This document shows, one piece after another, positions 8,686-43,337 of a stretch of DNA of 43,337 nt (the first letter of the stretch is position 1; each line of letters begins with the position of its first letter). The translations under genes and the position numbers were made by a program. Origin of the DNA: Clostridia bacterium (lineage in GTDB: Bacteria > Bacillota > Clostridia > Oscillospirales > CAG-272); assembly GCA_017466685.1 (NCBI GenBank), contig JAFTTS010000087.1, positions 1 through 43,337 on the forward strand, given 5' to 3'. The notes under the pieces were generated by a model. That model was not told the DNA's origin. It worked only from the letters and a program-made list of their open reading frames with translations, and ran no database searches.

Positions 8686-10265
8686 CAGAGAATAATAACG
8701 GTTTTGACAAAGAAACATCAACGCTGTTCTCGTCCGATCCCGAAAACGGTAAAAAGCCGATAAAAAAGAAAAATTCGGCGAAGAAACAGCAGGTTACAAT
8801 AGCTTGTCTTGCGCTTGCCGTTATTGCAGCGATCGCGGTGTACATTTTTGTGGTGTCGCCGTATCTGCAAAGCGGAAGTGAGACAGAGGAGGAGGTCGTC
8901 GAGCTTCTTTCGGGTGAGGCTCTCGGAGCAAACAACACGGTGCTTCTTTATGAAAAGCTCACCAAGGACGACATCGCCAAAATCGAGGTTGACAACGAAA
9001 AGGGCGGTTACGGCTTTATTTACAGCGGAATTAACAAGAACTTTTCCCTTATCGGACACGTTAATGCGCCTTATGACACCACGCTTTTATCGTCGCTGAC
9101 GTCAAGTGTCGGACAGATGGGTGCATCCGAGCGTTTGCTCCAGGATTGTGACGATTTCGCCGAATACGGACTCGATGAAACCGGGAATCCCGCAAGCTAC
9201 ACGGTAACCACACGTGAGGGAGCGGTACACACCGTGTATATCGGAAACAAAACTCCCTCGGGACAAGGTTATTATGCACGTTACGAGGGCAGGGATACGG
9301 TGTATATCGTTGGCACCGGTATCGCAAAGACGGTGTTCTCATCGCTTGAAGAAATGCTGACACCGAAGCTTGCTCTGACGATGGCGCAGAACGATTATTT
9401 CATGATAAAAAAGTTCACGCTCATGCGTGGTGAAGAGACTGCACTGCAGATAATCTATCTTAACGAGGAGGAGCAGAAAGCAGCGGCCGCGATCACGGCA
9501 TACAAGATGCTTGCTCCGGCAAACTATTCGGTCAACAGCACAAATTATCTGACGGCACTTGAATCCATAATGGAGTTCAAGGGAAAATCGACGCTCGCAT
9601 ATAAGCCGACCGACGAGCAGCTTGCCGAATACGGACTTGACAAAGCGGCGTTCGGTATCTATTACACCTACGGAGGAATCGATCAGGCTGTTGAGTTCAG
9701 CGAGAAGAACGAGAACGGTAACTACTATGCGTATTCGTCATATTATGACCTTATCGCAGAGGTTGACGGCGACCAGCTTACATGGCTCGAATGGGACAGT
9801 GTCAAGTGGGTTGACTATCCGATATTCATGATGAACATCAACGATATAAAAACGATCAAGCTCGAGAGCGACACGGCTTCGTATACGTTCGCACTTGACG
9901 GGGTTGACAAAGAGTTGACCGTGGTTGAAAGTGAGAGCGGAACGGCTCCCGATGTGTCGATCTTCAGAAAGTTCTATCATGTGCTTCTGACGATACATAT
10001 GCAGAATTATGTATACGAGGATCTTGACAGGGAAGCGGCAGATGCGCTTGTTGCGACCGATGATCCCTATCTCACGCTGACTATCGAGACACGTGCAGGT
10101 CAGGTGACCGAGTTCAAGTTCTATCCGTACAGCACTCGCCGTGCTTACTATACCGTAAACGGTGAGGGAGAATTTTATGTTCTTCGCGACATGGTTACGA
10201 AGGTCATCACCGATGCCGAAAAGCTCATGGCAGGCGAGATGATTGATCCCGAAGCACCCAGCTGA
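8682..10265 (+). CDS. DUF4340 domain-containing membrane-anchored protein
   Basis: A 527-residue protein starting at ATG 8682, overlapping the previous stop by 4 bp; a longer frame from 8601 lies inside the upstream gene and was rejected. A basic, Lys-rich cytoplasmic start is followed by one membrane segment (about residues 42-64) and a long extracytoplasmic part. Repeated motifs of the form 'DDFAEYGLDE...' and 'EQLAEYGLDKAAF' are typical of DUF4340, which commonly follows GldG-like genes. It is presumably a surface subunit of the transporter. The operon ends at the terminator right after it. Confidence 0.8.
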   Translation: MTENNNGFDKETSTLFSSDPENGKKPIKKKNSAKKQQVTIACLALAVIAAIAVYIFVVSPYLQSGSETEEEVVELLSGEALGANNTVLLYEKLTKDDIAKIEVDNEKGGYGFIYSGINKNFSLIGHVNAPYDTTLLSSLTSSVGQMGASERLLQDCDDFAEYGLDETGNPASYTVTTREGAVHTVYIGNKTPSGQGYYARYEGRDTVYIVGTGIAKTVFSSLEEMLTPKLALTMAQNDYFMIKKFTLMRGEETALQIIYLNEEEQKAAAAITAYKMLAPANYSVNSTNYLTALESIMEFKGKSTLAYKPTDEQLAEYGLDKAAFGIYYTYGGIDQAVEFSEKNENGNYYAYSSYYDLIAEVDGDQLTWLEWDSVKWVDYPIFMMNINDIKTIKLESDTASYTFALDGVDKELTVVESESGTAPDVSIFRKFYHVLLTIHMQNYVYEDLDREAADALVATDDPYLTLTIETRAGQVTEFKFYPYSTRRAYYTVNGEGEFYVLRDMVTKVITDAEKLMAGEMIDPEAPS

Positions 10266-10270
10266 TATAT

Positions 10271-10306
10271 AAGGACTGTCACGTTATTGCGGCAGTCCTT
10301 TTTGTT
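10271..10306 (+). terminator. Rho-independent terminator of the ABC cassette
   Basis: AAGGACTG (10271-10278) pairs with CAGTCCTT (10293-10300), followed by a T-run. It ends the 5447-10265 operon. Confidence 0.88.
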
Positions 10307-10330
10307 TTGGTGAGAGAGGTGTTACAGCGG

Positions 10331-10427
10331 TGTGCGTTGACACCTCATCCGGCTTGCTTCGCTCGTTGACACCTCATCCACCGCTTACGCGGTCCCCCTT
10401 CTCCCACTGGAGAAGGCTTTAAGTTAG
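10331..10427. repeat. Intergenic repeat fragment ending in AAGTTAG
   Basis: Contains CACCTCATCC twice, the hairpin ACCGC-TTAC-GCGGT, the hairpin CTTCTCC-CACT-GGAGAAG, and the terminal AAGTTAG (10421-10427). The same design is seen at 13820-13875 and 24598-24697. It is the left part of the 10266-11032 gene-free interval. Confidence 0.75.
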
Positions 10428-10477
10428 ATTAAAGCAGCAAAACGATGTGCAAAGCGAAACGATGTTTGCGGCTCGGA

Positions 10478-10780
10478 CTAACTTTTCTGCAGTGAAAGAA
10501 ACAAGGGAGAAAAGCCGCCCTCGCAAGGTGGCGGCACGAACGGTACAGGTGTCAAAGCGAATTGTGAGCGTTAGCGAACTGAGCGCAAGTCGGGCGCAGC
10601 CAAGGAGGTGCAAAGGGGAGCTCGAGGGGTACACTCGCCAATGGCGATGTGTTAGGAACACTGCGGCGAGCTGGTTCCTGTGCCCCTCGAATTTACGCGA
10701 AGTTCGAAGCGGTGTACTTCGAATTACCCTCTCCGTCTCGCTACGCTCGCCACCTCTCCCAAAGGACGAGGCTAAGTTAG
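10478..10780 (+). repeat. Structured intergenic element, copy A (CTAACTT...AAGTTAG)
   Basis: A 303 bp copy in forward orientation. It starts CTAACTTTTCTGCAGTGAAAG and ends GAGGCTAAGTTAG. Internal hairpins: GCCGCC/GGCGGC (loop CTCGCAAGGT, different from other copies while the stem is kept), CGAGGGG (10623-10629) with CCCCTCG (10683-10689) enclosing an AGGAAC/GGTTCC stem, and CGAAG/CTTCG. No credible protein is encoded. It lies between the ABC terminator and the aldehyde dehydrogenase promoter. Confidence 0.82.
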
Positions 10781-12551: not shown

Positions 12552-13745
12552 ATGATAAATGTAGCAATATTCGGTTTCGGCGTTGTCGGTAGCGGTACAG
12601 CAGAGGTGCTGACGCAGAACGCTAAGCTCATCTCCGAGCGTGTCGGTGAGGAAATCAACATAAAATATATCCTCGACCTGCGTGACTTCCCCGATAGCCC
12701 GTTTGCCGATAAAATCGTCCATGACGTAAATGTGATCATAAACGATCCCGAGGTTAAGATTTGTGCCGAGTTGATGGGCGGTTCACATCCTGCGTTCGAG
12801 TTTTCGAGTGCGGCACTCAAGGCAGGCAAGAGCGTTGTAACCTCAAATAAAGAGGTCGTTGCAACCTTTGGTCCGGAGCTTCTTAAAATAGCGGCAGAAA
12901 ATAACGTCCGTTATCTCTTTGAAGCGAGCGTCGGCGGCGGTATACCCGTCATCCATCCCATCGGAAATTGCCTGACCGCAAACGATATCACCGAGGTCAA
13001 CGGTATCTTAAACGGCACCACAAACTATATCTTAACACAGATGATAAACGAGCACAAGGATTTCGACACCGCTCTCGCAGAGGCTCAGGAAAAGGGTTAC
13101 GCAGAACGTGATCCCTCTGCCGACGTTGACGGTATCGACACCTGCCGTAAGATCGCGATACTTTCGGCAATTGCGTTCGGTAAGCTCGTTCCGCCGGATA
13201 AGGTCAAAACCGAGGGTATACGCGGTGTAACACTTCGCGACGTCGCAAATGCAGAGAAGTTCGGTGCTTCAATAAAGCTTATCGGTAAAGCGGTACGTGT
13301 TGACGGAAAGGTGAGTGCGTGCGTCTGCCCGACTCTCGTACGTCATTCGAATCCGCTTTCAAGCATCAGCGACGTATATAACGGCGTGCTCGTAAACGGT
13401 AACGCAATCGGCGACGTAATGTTCTACGGTCGAGGTGCAGGTAAGCTGCCGACAGCAAGCGCAGTTGTTTCCGATATCATCGAGATCGCGACATATCTCT
13501 CGCATCCCGTTCATACAACACAGGTCTGGGAGCGTCTCACCGATGACGAGATCCTCCCTGCAGACAGACTCAAATCGCGTTGGTATCTGCGTTTCGACAA
13601 GAAGCCGAGCCACTGTCTCGCATCACTCGGTGCAGAAGTGATCGAGGATGCACCCGATTCGTATGCGGTTGTAACCGATGAGGTAACGCTGCTCGACGTT
13701 GGTATCACCGTAAGCGAAAAGTTTGTCGCTATGCGTGTGCTTTAA
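12552..13745 (+). CDS. hom: Homoserine dehydrogenase
   Basis: A 397-residue enzyme that reduces aspartate semialdehyde to homoserine, the branch point to threonine and methionine. The Rossmann start 'VAIFGFGVVGSG' (G8-x-G10-x-x-G13), 'SNKEVVATFGPEL', 'GILNGTTNYILTQM' and 'AERDPSADVDGIDTCRKIAILSAIAFG' are diagnostic. The C-terminal ~75 residues after 'SHPVHTTQVWERL' form a short ACT-like tail, a little shorter than in the ~430-residue Bacillus enzyme. It is transcribed alone, without thrB/thrC beside it, and closed by a terminator. Confidence 0.95.
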   Translation: MINVAIFGFGVVGSGTAEVLTQNAKLISERVGEEINIKYILDLRDFPDSPFADKIVHDVNVIINDPEVKICAELMGGSHPAFEFSSAALKAGKSVVTSNKEVVATFGPELLKIAAENNVRYLFEASVGGGIPVIHPIGNCLTANDITEVNGILNGTTNYILTQMINEHKDFDTALAEAQEKGYAERDPSADVDGIDTCRKIAILSAIAFGKLVPPDKVKTEGIRGVTLRDVANAEKFGASIKLIGKAVRVDGKVSACVCPTLVRHSNPLSSISDVYNGVLVNGNAIGDVMFYGRGAGKLPTASAVVSDIIEIATYLSHPVHTTQVWERLTDDEILPADRLKSRWYLRFDKKPSHCLASLGAEVIEDAPDSYAVVTDEVTLLDVGITVSEKFVAMRVL

Positions 13746-13756
13746 GTGAAAATATT

Positions 13757-13788
13757 AAGGAGCTTTTGAAACGAAGGCTCCTTTTTTT
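13757..13788 (+). terminator. Rho-independent terminator of hom
   Basis: AAGGAGC (13757-13763) pairs with GCTCCTT (13777-13783), followed by a T7 run. Confidence 0.88.
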
Positions 13789-13819
13789 GCCCCTTCGTGA
13801 AGCTGACAGCTAAGAAACG

Positions 13820-13875
13820 CCTCATCCACCGCTTACGCGGTCCCCCTTCTCCCACCGGAGAAGGCTTTGAGTAAC
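13820..13875. repeat. Short intergenic repeat (CCTCATCC...GAGAAGGC type)
   Basis: CCTCATCC, hairpin ACCGC-TTAC-GCGGT and hairpin CTTCTCC-CACC-GGAGAAG, ending CTTTGAGTAAC. It is almost identical to 10373-10427 and sits between the convergent hom and uxuA genes. Confidence 0.72.
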
Positions 13876-13884
13876 TTTGTGCAA

Positions 13885-13919
13885 TAAAAAAGCCAATGCA
13901 GCATCAAAACCGCATTGAC
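13885..13919 (-). terminator. Terminator of uxuA
   Basis: On the minus strand, CAATGC (13917-13912) pairs with GCATTG (13899-13894) and is followed by a T-run (A-run 13885-13891 on the plus strand). Confidence 0.8.
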
Positions 13920-13927
13920 TTTCGTTT

Positions 13928-14983
13928 TTACTTGTTTTCCTTGTTGATCGCTTCCCAGATGCCGTTAAGGTAAACAGCACCGAGTGCACGGTCGTAGAGG
14001 CCGTAACCGGGTCTGCCCGATTCACCCCAGATCATGCGTCCGTGGTCGGGACGGATGTAACCGTCGAAATCAACATCCCATGCCGCTTTCAGTACATCGT
14101 ACATATCGAGCGAACCGTTCTCACTTAAGTGTCCCGTTTCGTTGAAGTCACGGGGACCGGTGATCTTGATGTTGCGTGCGTGCAGGAAGTGGATACGCTT
14201 CATCGCGCCGAAGTGACGGATCATGTCAACAACATTGTTGTTAGGATCAACGCCGAGCGAGCCTGTGCAAAGTGTCAGACCGTTGCATTCGCTGTCAACT
14301 AACTTGCAGAAACGCTCGAGATTCTTCGCATTGGTGATAACTCTCGGAAGTCCAAAGATACCCCACGGCGGATCGTCCGGGTGGATCGCCATCTTGATAC
14401 CGTTCTCCTCACAAACGGGAATGATACCGTGCAAGAAGTAGCTCATGTTCTCCCAGAGCTTCTCCTCGTCAACCGACTTGTACTCTGCAAGCAGTGCACG
14501 AAGACCGTCCTGAGTGTAGCTTTCGTCCCAACCAGGCAGGGAGAGCTTCTTTGTGTTGGGGTCCATTGCGAGAACCTCTGCGTCGCGATAAATAAGACAG
14601 GTCGAGCCGTCGGGATTCTTGTGTGAAAGATCCGAACGGAGCCAGTCGAATACGGGCATAAAGTTATAGCAGATAACCTTAACGCCTGCGTCTGCAAGCT
14701 TCTTGATGTTGCGGCGGTATACCTCGATATACTCATCGCGGGAAGGCTTGCCGAGCTTGATGTCCTCGTGTACGGGTACACTTTCAACCACCTCAAAAGC
14801 AAGACCGTGAGCATTCGCACTGTTCTTTACCTTTGCAATACTCTCGGCACTCCATTCTTTTCCGGGCGGAACATCGTAAACCGCCGATACGATACCGGTC
14901 ATACCGGGAATCTGTGAGATATACTCAAGACTGACGGGATCGCCGTCACCGTAATGGCGGAAGGTCATTTTCATTTCCTTCAT
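13928..14983 (-). CDS. uxuA: D-mannonate dehydratase
   Basis: A 351-residue UxuA, converting D-mannonate to 2-keto-3-deoxygluconate in glucuronate catabolism. The N-terminus '[24 protein letters not shown]', '[14 protein letters not shown]', '[17 protein letters not shown]' (metal-binding His/Asp region) and '[13 protein letters not shown]' are characteristic. The start at 14983 has AGGAGG (14991-14996); an ATG at 14974 is possible but lacks spacing support. It is a single-gene unit with its own promoter and terminator. No other uronate genes are nearby, so the rest of the pathway must lie elsewhere. Confidence 0.95.
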
Positions 14984-24597: not shown

Positions 24598-24697
24598 GGT
24601 ACCTCATTCGACTCGCTATGCTCGTTGACACCTCATCCGACAAAGTTGCGGAGCAAGCTTTTCCACCTCTCTCCCACCGGAGAAGGCTTTGGGTTAG
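24598..24697. repeat. Intergenic repeat fragment ending in GGGTTAG
   Basis: Two CACCTCAT-type units and the hairpin CTCTCTCCCACCGGAGAAGG followed by CTTTGGGTTAG (24687-24697). Same design and same position relative to the large element as 10331-10427. The 24518-25109 gap is filled by these repeats. Confidence 0.7.
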
Positions 24698-24729
24698 TCG
24701 GAGCAGTAAAACGCTGTCCGCGGCTCGGA

Positions 24730-25010
24730 CTAACTTTTTTGCAGTGAAAGAAACAATGAAGCCACTGAGCCGCCGATGCAACTGGCGGCGGACGAACGGT
24801 ACAGGTGTCAAAGCGAATTGTGAGCGTTAGCGAACTGAGCGCGAGTCGGGCGCAGCCAAGGAGGGCGGAGGGAGCTCGAGGGAGGTAGGAACCTGCGGCG
24901 AGCTGGTTCCTGTTTCCCTCGAATTACGCGAAATCCAGAGCGGCTTACTCCGAATTGCCCTCTCAGTCAGCTTACGCTGACAGCTCTCCCAGAGTGAGAG
25001 CCTAAGTTAG
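24730..25010 (+). repeat. Structured intergenic element, copy D
   Basis: A 281 bp forward copy, from CTAACTT (24730) to AAGTTAG (25004-25010). Hairpins: GCCGCC (24769-24774)/GGCGGC (24784-24789); CGAGGGA (24877-24883)/TCCCTCG (24915-24921) enclosing AGGAACC (24887-24893)/GGTTCCT (24905-24911); and GTCAGC-TTAC-GCTGAC near 24966-24981. A further partial 3' module (to about 25057) follows it. Confidence 0.85.
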
Positions 25011-28731: not shown

Positions 28732-29032
28732 CTAACTTAGGCTCGCCCTCTGGGAGAGCTGTCAGCGTAAGCTGACTGAGAGGGTGATTCGAAGTGTACT
28801 GCTTCGAACATCGTATCATTCGAGAGGGACGACAACCAACGCTGGCGCGAAGGTTTTCTTCCCTCTCGAGCTCTCCCTCTTTCCTTTGCCTGCGCTCGAT
28901 TCGCGCTCAGTTCGCAGGCTCACAATTCGCTTTGTCAGCTGTAACCTTTCGTCCGCCGCCAGTTACATCGGCGGCTCAGTGGCTTCATTGTTTCTTTTAT
29001 TGTTGTAACGCCGCTGACGCGGCTGAAGTTAG
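28732..29032 (-). repeat. Structured intergenic element, copy E (reverse orientation)
   Basis: A 301 bp copy between CTAACTT (28732-28738) and AAGTTAG (29026-29032). The main stem is CGAGAGGGA (28821-28829) with TCCCTCTCG (28860-28868), 9 perfect pairs, compared with 7 in copies A and D. Other stems: GCCGCC/GGCGGC, GCCGC-GTCA-GCGGC at the 5' end of the element, GCCTGCG/CGCAGGC, CGAAG/CTTCG and GTCAGC/GCTGAC. It lies between the convergent M23 and spoVG genes. Confidence 0.85.
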
Positions 29033-35612: not shown

Positions 35613-36174
35613 TCTAACTTCAGCCGCGTCAGCGGCGTTACTGCCGTAAAAGAAACAATGAAGCCACTGAGCCGCCGATGTAACTGGCGGCGGACGAACG
35701 GTTACAGCAAACAAAGCGAATCCGGAGCCGTAGGCGGAGTTGAGCGCGAACCGAGCGCAAGCCAAGGAGGGCGGGAGGAGCTCGAGGGGGGTAGGAACCT
35801 GCGGCGAGCTGGTTCCTGTTTCCCTCGAACTTACGCGAAAAATGATTCGCAATCTGAAAAATTTGGATATACTTTCGTTATCCGGGATGAAAGTTACTTT
35901 TATGCTCATATCAAAGAAAGTGCTTTTTCAAAGTATGCTGCTTCGAGCATCGTATCATCCGAAGGGGACGACAACCATGCTGGCGCAAAGTTTTTCGTCC
36001 CCCTCGGGCTCCCCCTCTTTCCTTTGCCTGCGCTCGATTCGCGCTCAACTCCGCCTACGGCTCCGGATTCGCTTTGTCAGCGATAACCGTTCGTCCGCCG
36101 CCAGCTGCGTCGGCGGCTCAAGTGCACCTTTGTTTCTTTCGGTGCATTAACGCCGCGATGCGGCTGAAGTTAGA
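35613..36174. repeat. Head-to-head composite of two structured elements (copies F1 and F2)
   Basis: Perfect 15 bp terminal inverted repeats: TCTAACTTCAGCCGC (35613-35627) and GCGGCTGAAGTTAGA (36160-36174). F1 (forward, to about 35840) and F2 (reverse, from about 35930) each keep GCCGCC/GGCGGC and the CGAGGG-type main stem but lack the 3' module. Their middle is ~90 bp of unrelated sequence. Between hppA and pdxK there is no other gene. F1 resembles copies A/D in the inner AGGAACC/GGTTCC part; F2 resembles E/G. Confidence 0.83.
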
Positions 36175-42975: not shown

Positions 42976-43026
42976 TATTTTTTTATGAATTTTTTTATTA
43001 TTGTAATAAAGTAACAACTGCACCAA

Positions 43027-43337
43027 ACTAACAAAGTTGCACTTGACGCCGACGCAGTTGGCGGGACGAACGGTCACCGCTAACAAAGCGAATTGTGAGC
43101 ATAGATCGAATGTGGCTGCGCTAAAGAAACAATGAAGCCACTGAGCCGCCGATGCAACTGGCGGCGGACGAACGGTTACGGCTGACAAAGCGAATCCGGA
43201 GCCGTAAGGCGGAGTTGAGCGCAATCCGAGAGCAGGCAAAGGAAAGAGGGAGAGCTCGAGAGGGAAGAAAACCTTCGCGCCAGCGTTGGTTGTCGTCCCT
43301 CTCGAATGATACGATGCTCGAAGCAGCATACTTCGGG
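43027..43337 (+). repeat. Structured intergenic element, copy G, running off the right edge
   Basis: It begins with a degenerate copy (ACTAACAAAGTTGC, CGCC-GACGCAGTT-GGCG hairpin, CGGTCACCGCTAACAAAGCG), into which a second forward copy is joined at about 43123 ('AAAGAAACAATGAAGCCACTG'). Main stem CGAGAGGGA (43257-43265)/TCCCTCTCG (43296-43304), as in copy E. The ~380 bp between the ydjI promoter and the edge holds nothing else. Confidence 0.82.

Follow-up and report, generated by a model that had tools for sequence, protein, structure and literature searches.

The role of intrastrand DNA triplexes in cells has been debated since the BoxC/PIT elements were described, and the abundance of suitable sequences alone could not settle it. 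For the E. coli elements, TMECO, triplex formation in vivo was found to be only minor or transient (Holder et al. 2015, PMC4666352). The order third strand-N3-R-loop-Y along one strand defines a class I intrastrand triplex, and triplexes of the purine motif reportedly fail to form in RNA (PMC4666352). Here we describe repeats in a Clostridia MAG of 2.32 Mb and 148 contigs, starting from one contig that was analysed over its whole length of 43,337 nucleotides and is referred to below as the window. They constitute a new family, related in principle to BoxC/PIT/TMECO, and are probably non-autonomous, multi-copy, mobile-like DNA elements whose core, a hairpin plus a third strand, would form a class I intrastrand triplex in a folded single strand. 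The TMECO/BoxC pattern CCCTCNCCC-N3-6-GGGNGAGGG-N3-GGGNGAGGG was not found; the core is class I and of other sequence.

An initial annotation of the window had listed six copies (A, D, E, F1, F2 and G), all of which are present where it placed them or a few bases away, and a model made solely from units of other genera (R2) recovers exactly these six in the window. Several details are revised: copy E keeps its coordinates and lies on the minus strand; F1 and F2 are both real, and are the two arms of one inverted pair rather than separate elements; and G begins at 43019 instead of 43027. The features are as follows.

10478..10780, plus strand: copy A, a solo arm and 3' small palindrome, with ends CTAACTT...AAGTTAG.
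10514..10535, plus strand: hairpin H2 of A, GCCGCC-CTCGCAAGGT-GGCGGC with a C-GCAA-G loop (from the sequence and the loop table).
10596..10692, plus strand: predicted triplex core of A, with third strand AAGGAGGTGCAAAGGGGAG, linker CTC and stem CGAGGGG/CCCCTCG (R2 20.8 bits, fold and mirror test).
Within the core of A, plus strand: an extra small hairpin, ACACTCGCC-AAT-GGCGATGTGT, in the 5' strand of the stem.
10726..10772, plus strand: 3' small palindrome of A, ACCCTCTCC-hairpin-CCTCTCCC-AAA-GGACGAGGC, a potential class II triplex on the minus strand (class II scan).
24730..25010, plus strand: copy D, a solo arm and 3' small palindrome.
24852..24924, plus strand: predicted triplex core of D, with third strand ..GGAGGGCGGAGGGAG, linker CTC and stem GAGGGAGGTAGGAACC / GGTTCCTGTTTCCCTC (R2 54.7 bits).
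24958..25002, plus strand: 3' small palindrome of D, CCCTCTC-GTCAGC..GCTGAC-CTCTCCC-AGA-GTGAGAG.
28732..29032, minus strand: copy E, a solo arm with 5' hairpin CAGCCGC-GTCA-GCGGC and small palindrome.
28818..28892, minus strand: predicted triplex core of E, with third strand AAGGAAAGAGGGAGAG, linker CTC and stem GAGAGGGAAGAAAACC (R2 39.8 bits).
35613..36174, no single strand: paired element F, with F1 (plus strand, 35613-35840), a centre of ~75 nt and F2 (minus strand, 35912-36174), a 562-bp imperfect giant inverted repeat.
35758..35830, plus strand: predicted triplex core of arm F1 (R2 53.2 bits).
35957..36030, minus strand: predicted triplex core of arm F2 (R2 44.9 bits).
43019..43337, plus strand: copy G, a partial arm and then a second arm ended by the contig end.
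43233..43307, plus strand: predicted triplex core of G (R2 39.8 bits).

Two architectures recur throughout the genome, namely solo arms of ~300 bp and inverted pairs of ~560 bp with the arms head to head. Each arm measures ~230 bp in this species and consists of the core plus further GNA-looped hairpins, and in the solo copies A, D and E the single arm is followed by a palindrome of ~50 nt of a type common to other families of the order. The ends CTAACTT/AAGTTAG, which the initial annotation gave for the family, do occur in A, D, E and the F pair, but were read too simply, since the solo copies also carry this widespread 3' palindrome. Upstream of the solo arms a second inverted repeat (GTTAGTC.GAGC ... 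GCTCGGACTAAC) links an upstream small palindrome to the arm (window 10430-10480 and 24695-24730). The pairs are regular in composition: in 13 of the 15 that could be classified TGATACGA follows one arm and TTACGCGAA the other, the remaining two have the TTACGCGAA flank on both arms, and the stem types of the two arms are unlike in all 15.

A search with a profile made from 15 arms located 83 arms in 1.78 Mb of the MAG, which bears out the repeated, mobile-looking, MITE-like nature proposed from the window, and copy A as a blastn query matched 64 places in its own genome (best non-self E 4e-86). The elements lack coding function, as had also been proposed. Paired elements often lie at contig ends (L067, L073, L091, L092, L110 and the window end), which indicates that short-read assembly breaks off at the giant inverted repeats and that the true copy number is probably higher. 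The arms are confined largely to part of the MAG contigs, several arm-free contigs being clearly distinct in tetranucleotide composition, and this uneven distribution may reflect either a chimeric MAG or a clustering of the repeats in one region of the chromosome. Copies belonging to several stem types carry a small palindrome, ACACTCGC-N-GCGATGTGT, inserted into the main stem's 5' strand (window 10624-10660, L090, L092, L087, L081 and L056), which is evidence of modular exchange among copies.

The main stem falls into at least five sequence types, and the stem variants first quoted for the window are correct. Over 39 copies, 92.5% of main-stem cells pair, against 82.8% in shuffles, with two-sided changes in 12 of the 15 pairs and in 79 cells (27.5 when shuffled). 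The covariation score of 0.425 (0.246 ± 0.013 in shuffles) was equalled in 0 of 500 shuffles, supporting the selection on folding that the initial annotation had suspected. Sliding the alignment by one column lowers pairing to 52-59%, and the signal collapses at slides of 1-3 columns. Even the base of the stem varies on both sides, from CTC/GAA to CCC/GGA, TTT/AAG and TAT/ATG. The 44 G·T oppositions in the stems, compared with about five A·C, indicate that only one strand folds, the arm's 5'-to-3' strand, and the DNA folding energies of the window cores lie 2.7 to 5.1 sd under those of shuffles. An automatic alignment of 64 arms gave only a weak RNAalifold consensus because stem types of unequal length misalign, a problem solved by the 39-copy alignments and per-arm folds.

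Each arm holds several hairpins capped by GNA triloops or GNNA tetraloops (GTA, GCA, GAA, GTCA, GTTA, GCCA, GGCA and GATA, also GTAA and GCAA). It had been noticed that GCCGCC/GGCGGC stays constant while its loop changes; this is so, and the loop changes covary too, with T-GNA-A and C-GNA-G closing pairs replacing one another. RNA favours GNRA loops, and the mostly pyrimidine third position seen here breaks that rule and fits stable DNA loops instead. GNA loops are described as making DNA minihairpins extraordinarily stable (Yoshizawa 1997 and Hirao 1994, both in the reference list of PMC6479982).

The initial annotation overlooked a third strand. A purine tract 5' of the main stem ends exactly 3 nt before it and, when reversed, equals the first 7-8 nt of the stem 5' strand for almost all types (GAGAGGG, GAGGAGGG, GAGGGAAA, GAGGGAGG, GAGGGGGA and GAGGGGGG). 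In the core of D, for example, the reversed third strand, GAGGGAGG, is identical to the stem GAGGGAGG, while in F2 the stem has become GAGGGGGA on a CCC/GGA base and the third strand has altered in step to GAGGGGGA. Within this genome the third strands fit their own stem type over others (0 of 20000 permutations), in a match that is short (7-8 nt) and weak for each type taken singly (p 0.02-0.11, with type IVa not significant).

Relatives were sought in MAGs of the same family, a search that the initial annotation had also suggested. With a covariance model of the core (R1), 30 of 196 family genomes were positive, in 16 of 71 genera and frequently with numerous matches in a single genome. These share the order, from 5' to 3', GCCAAGGA–[third strand]–N3–[R strand]–ACTTCGGCGTTTGAGATGGT–[Y strand]. 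In their alignment AAGGA is invariant inside the 5' motif GCCAAGGA and the 20-nt apex AAACTTCGGCGTTTGAGATGGTT is nearly so, with almost no sequence conservation in the stem or the 5' tract. Of 395 family genomes, 27 (12 genera) contain the pattern GCCAAGGA-N18-48-apex and none its reverse, and the forward pattern is absent from all 291 genomes sampled from the class; outside the family R2 gives weak matches only, in two other families of the order. Several cores of other genera are located in long stop-free frames. Contig collections of genomes and viruses yielded only chance matches to the exact arm motif. A contig filed as viral (L242, IMGVR_UViG_3300032167_001085) holds two to three of the predicted triplex units at 10105-10604 and 13348-13968, in two similar arrays 3.3 kb apart together with small class II palindromes and other repeats; considered as a possible autonomous element, it was set aside, as its ORF list and repeat map show ordinary repeat arrays with no such element evident.

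Altogether 87 distinct units parse as tract, about 3 nt, R strand, apex and Y strand, with foreign-unit stems that are ~96% Watson-Crick. Fifty-five of them, of odd length and from 15 genomes, were parsed by a fixed rule (third strand (n-5)/2, linker 3), and triads were counted position by position starting at the fourth. Over stem G the third strand has G 252 times, A 24 and T 3 (252/279, 90%); over stem A it has A 71 times, T 68, G once and C once (n = 141, A or T 98%). Over stem C it has T in 8 of 8 cases, the triad expected for a C·G inversion in the antiparallel purine motif. Compatible positions thus amount to 489/520 (94.0%), a figure that falls to 68.8% if units of equal length exchange their third strands (z 11.7, 0/2000) and to 81.6% if the exchange is confined to units of the same genome and length (z 7.2, 0/2000); because the units are related by descent these permutation figures are descriptive rather than true probabilities, and the within-genome swap corrects for this in part. 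The relation is lost in registers ±1 and ±2, and with the centre optimised alike in data and control all 87 units give 94.1% (z 14.3). The units therefore show what a class I triplex calls for, the order third strand, R and Y on one strand with short turns, and G.GC, A.AT and T.AT triads with an antiparallel third strand. As judged from the aligned units, this comparison shows that selection keeps all three strands matched across genera while the sequence drifts.

The even use of A and T over A·T is decisive among simpler readings of the tract. A plain mirror repeat of the H-DNA kind is ruled out by the T that replaces A at half of the A positions, as are, by inference, Watson-Crick templating and a pyrimidine-motif triplex on the opposite strand, a form possible in RNA, in which by the triad rules T over A would mean A over A-T. 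A direct-repeat, strand-exchange tract of the antiterminator type was rejected as well, its excess of own over swapped matches being small and inconsistent, unlike that of the mirror reading. As the code is that of the antiparallel purine motif, for which no formation in RNA is reported, the folded object is most likely DNA. In four genomes (G299, G329, G088 and G355) we observed a class I unit in which a variable hairpin (for example GAGC-GAA-GCGAG or CTGTTATGC-GAA-GCATAACAG) replaces the 3-nt linker.

The small palindromes, which are common in the order, take the form CCCTCATCC-hairpin-CCTTCTCCC-loop-GGAGAAGG and variants, and were seen at window positions 10726-10772, 24958-25002 and 13817-13865 and at loci L070, L075, L084, L099, L111 and L180. 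Their opposite strand is compatible with an intrastrand triplex of class II (Y-loop-R-hairpin linker-R), in which GGATGAGG would be the third strand and face GGAGAAGG, again with T over A. A variable hairpin with GNA or GNNA loops here stands in for the 3-nt turn, giving linkers of 17-26 nt where TMECO has N3. Perfect class II cases number 13 against 5.5 in a swap control, with linkers of 17-18 nt; the third strand is nearly constant, which makes this a weaker case than class I. If true, the triplex principle would also hold in other families of the order, by way of class II units whose linkers are hairpins.

How such a fold might be formed and used can be outlined as follows. The core strand would become single during lagging-strand replication, repair or cruciform extrusion, whereupon the R strand, the apex (ACTTCGGCGTTTGAGATGGT in most genera) and the Y strand could fold into a hairpin. 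The 5' G/A/T tract would then fold back antiparallel into the major groove, forming G.GC, A.AT and T.AT triads, and such folding presumably takes place in the cell. Beside a freely varying stem, the short GCCAAGGA motif and the apex are conserved, and copies multiply in some species. We suggest that these two sequences are contacts of a putative trans-acting enzyme, which would read the fold together with apex and 5' motif and copy or move the element. It is thus conceivable, and we hold this more tentatively than the triplex fold, that these are mobile elements whose functional signal lies in the tertiary structure of a folded DNA single strand, recognised by a putative recombination enzyme. 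The arms have no match at the DNA level in five genomes of the same genus, which is in line with mobility. Against it, no empty sites were seen, a consistent target-site duplication is lacking and no transposase is linked, and the elements may alternatively spread by recombination rather than transposition.

As to what the fold does, the chief alternative is a structural role, in which selection would act on the non-B structure itself (a fork barrier, a boundary between domains, or a site or hot spot of instability) and copies would spread by recombination. TMECO motifs have been associated with instability, PIT elements stop polymerase in vitro, and the lack of a target-site duplication or transposase in our searches would suit such a role. 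Nevertheless, it leaves the conserved GCCAAGGA and 20-nt apex beside a free stem unexplained, a combination that suggests specific recognition, and we regard it as unlikely.

The mobility of the family could also be that of a classical MITE, in which a DDE transposase acts on the CTAACTT ends and the hairpins are incidental. Terminal inverted repeats (CTAACTT/AAGTTAG) are indeed present and the copies are intergenic and dispersed; moreover, congeners differ in copy number, from 0 to 30 units, and some cores recur unchanged at several places within one genome, as expected of a mobile element. This reading is nevertheless improbable. By eye, no shared direct repeat of at least 3 bp flanks the paired copies, so that a consistent target duplication is lacking, and neither a linked transposase nor an autonomous partner was found. 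Conservation across genera resides in the triplex core and not in the ends, and a DDE enzyme has no need of stems that are hypervariable yet matched three ways.

The initial annotation had also offered an unnamed ncRNA family, whose hairpins would act in transcripts whether or not the element is mobile. Strong stem covariation, the preference for one strand with G.U tolerated and structures that fold well as RNA are all in keeping with this, but gene context and fold speak against it. Among 47 copies with both neighbours known, 16 lie in convergent, 29 in co-directional and 2 in divergent gaps (99, 390 and 131, respectively, for genome gaps of at least 60 bp), so that divergent, promoter-rich gaps are avoided, and solo copies in co-directional gaps run along the genes in 12 cases and against them in 10. 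Outer ends, inspected by eye, often lie 10-15 nt past a terminator-like hairpin and T-run. This combination of gap preference, mixed orientation and position past terminators fits a cis-acting mRNA element poorly. The loops violate the GNRA rule, and the third strand follows an antiparallel purine code, including T over A-T, that is reported not to form in RNA. A comparison with Rfam, another proposed check, returned only two tRNAs at gathering score from the window and 13 foreign loci, and no match to the element. We therefore consider an ncRNA family quite improbable.

Repeats of the REP/BIME kind, mobilised by a Y1 (IS200/RAYT) transposase through recognition of single-stranded DNA hairpins, would likewise offer a strand-specific fold of single-stranded DNA, intergenic position and head-to-head mosaic pairs from two arm classes, but are very improbable here, as a Y1 (Y1_Tnp) domain is absent from this MAG and shows no association across the family, occurring in 9 of 30 element-positive genomes against 11 expected (196 family genomes) and being absent from G123, which carries 30 units and is 99% complete.

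We thus favour the mobile-like DNA repeat with a class I triplex core. That the third strand tracks a freely evolving stem by a triad code in a dozen genera argues for selection on the triplex itself, and related repeats in at least a dozen genera would constitute unusually strong natural evidence for the use of triple-stranded DNA in cells. No report of three-strand covariation in natural DNA was found in the open-licence literature and, if true, it would be the first such evidence there for a natural intrastrand DNA triplex. The family supplies dozens of natural substrates with built-in compensatory mutants, on which triplex formation and recognition are directly testable, and it points to a possible enzyme that reads folded DNA. 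More generally, covariation is usually taken as a sign of RNA but can mark structured DNA.

Like BoxC/PIT/TMECO (PMC4666352), the elements described here are multi-copy bacterial repeats in which one strand potentially forms a purine-motif triplex with a 3-nt turn, and they follow no rule of orientation relative to genes. TMECO are class II (Y-loop-R-N3-R), near-constant in sequence and reported from proteobacteria, whereas the present elements are class I (R-N3-R-loop-Y), with hypervariable stems and three-strand covariation, and were seen in one family only (0 of 291 sampled genomes of the class); unlike TMECO, they also have a conserved 20-nt apex and GCCAAGGA and are set in larger, mobile-looking arms. 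With REP/BIME/REPIN they share intergenic palindromic hairpins, head-to-head two-class mosaics and strong variation in copy number, but REPs measure 20-40 bp, compared with arms of ~230 bp that bear a third strand and have no associated Y1 transposase. They resemble MITEs in being non-coding and dispersed, with inverted ends (CTAACTT/AAGTTAG) at ~300 or ~560 bp, and differ from them in having no target duplication and no parent transposase, the conserved part being an internal fold. Finally, the mirror symmetry of the purine tract and the R.R-Y triads recall the mirror repeats of H-DNA, with the distinction that here the pyrimidine strand lies on the same strand, as a hairpin arm, and that T takes the place of A half the time, so that what is kept is a triad code.
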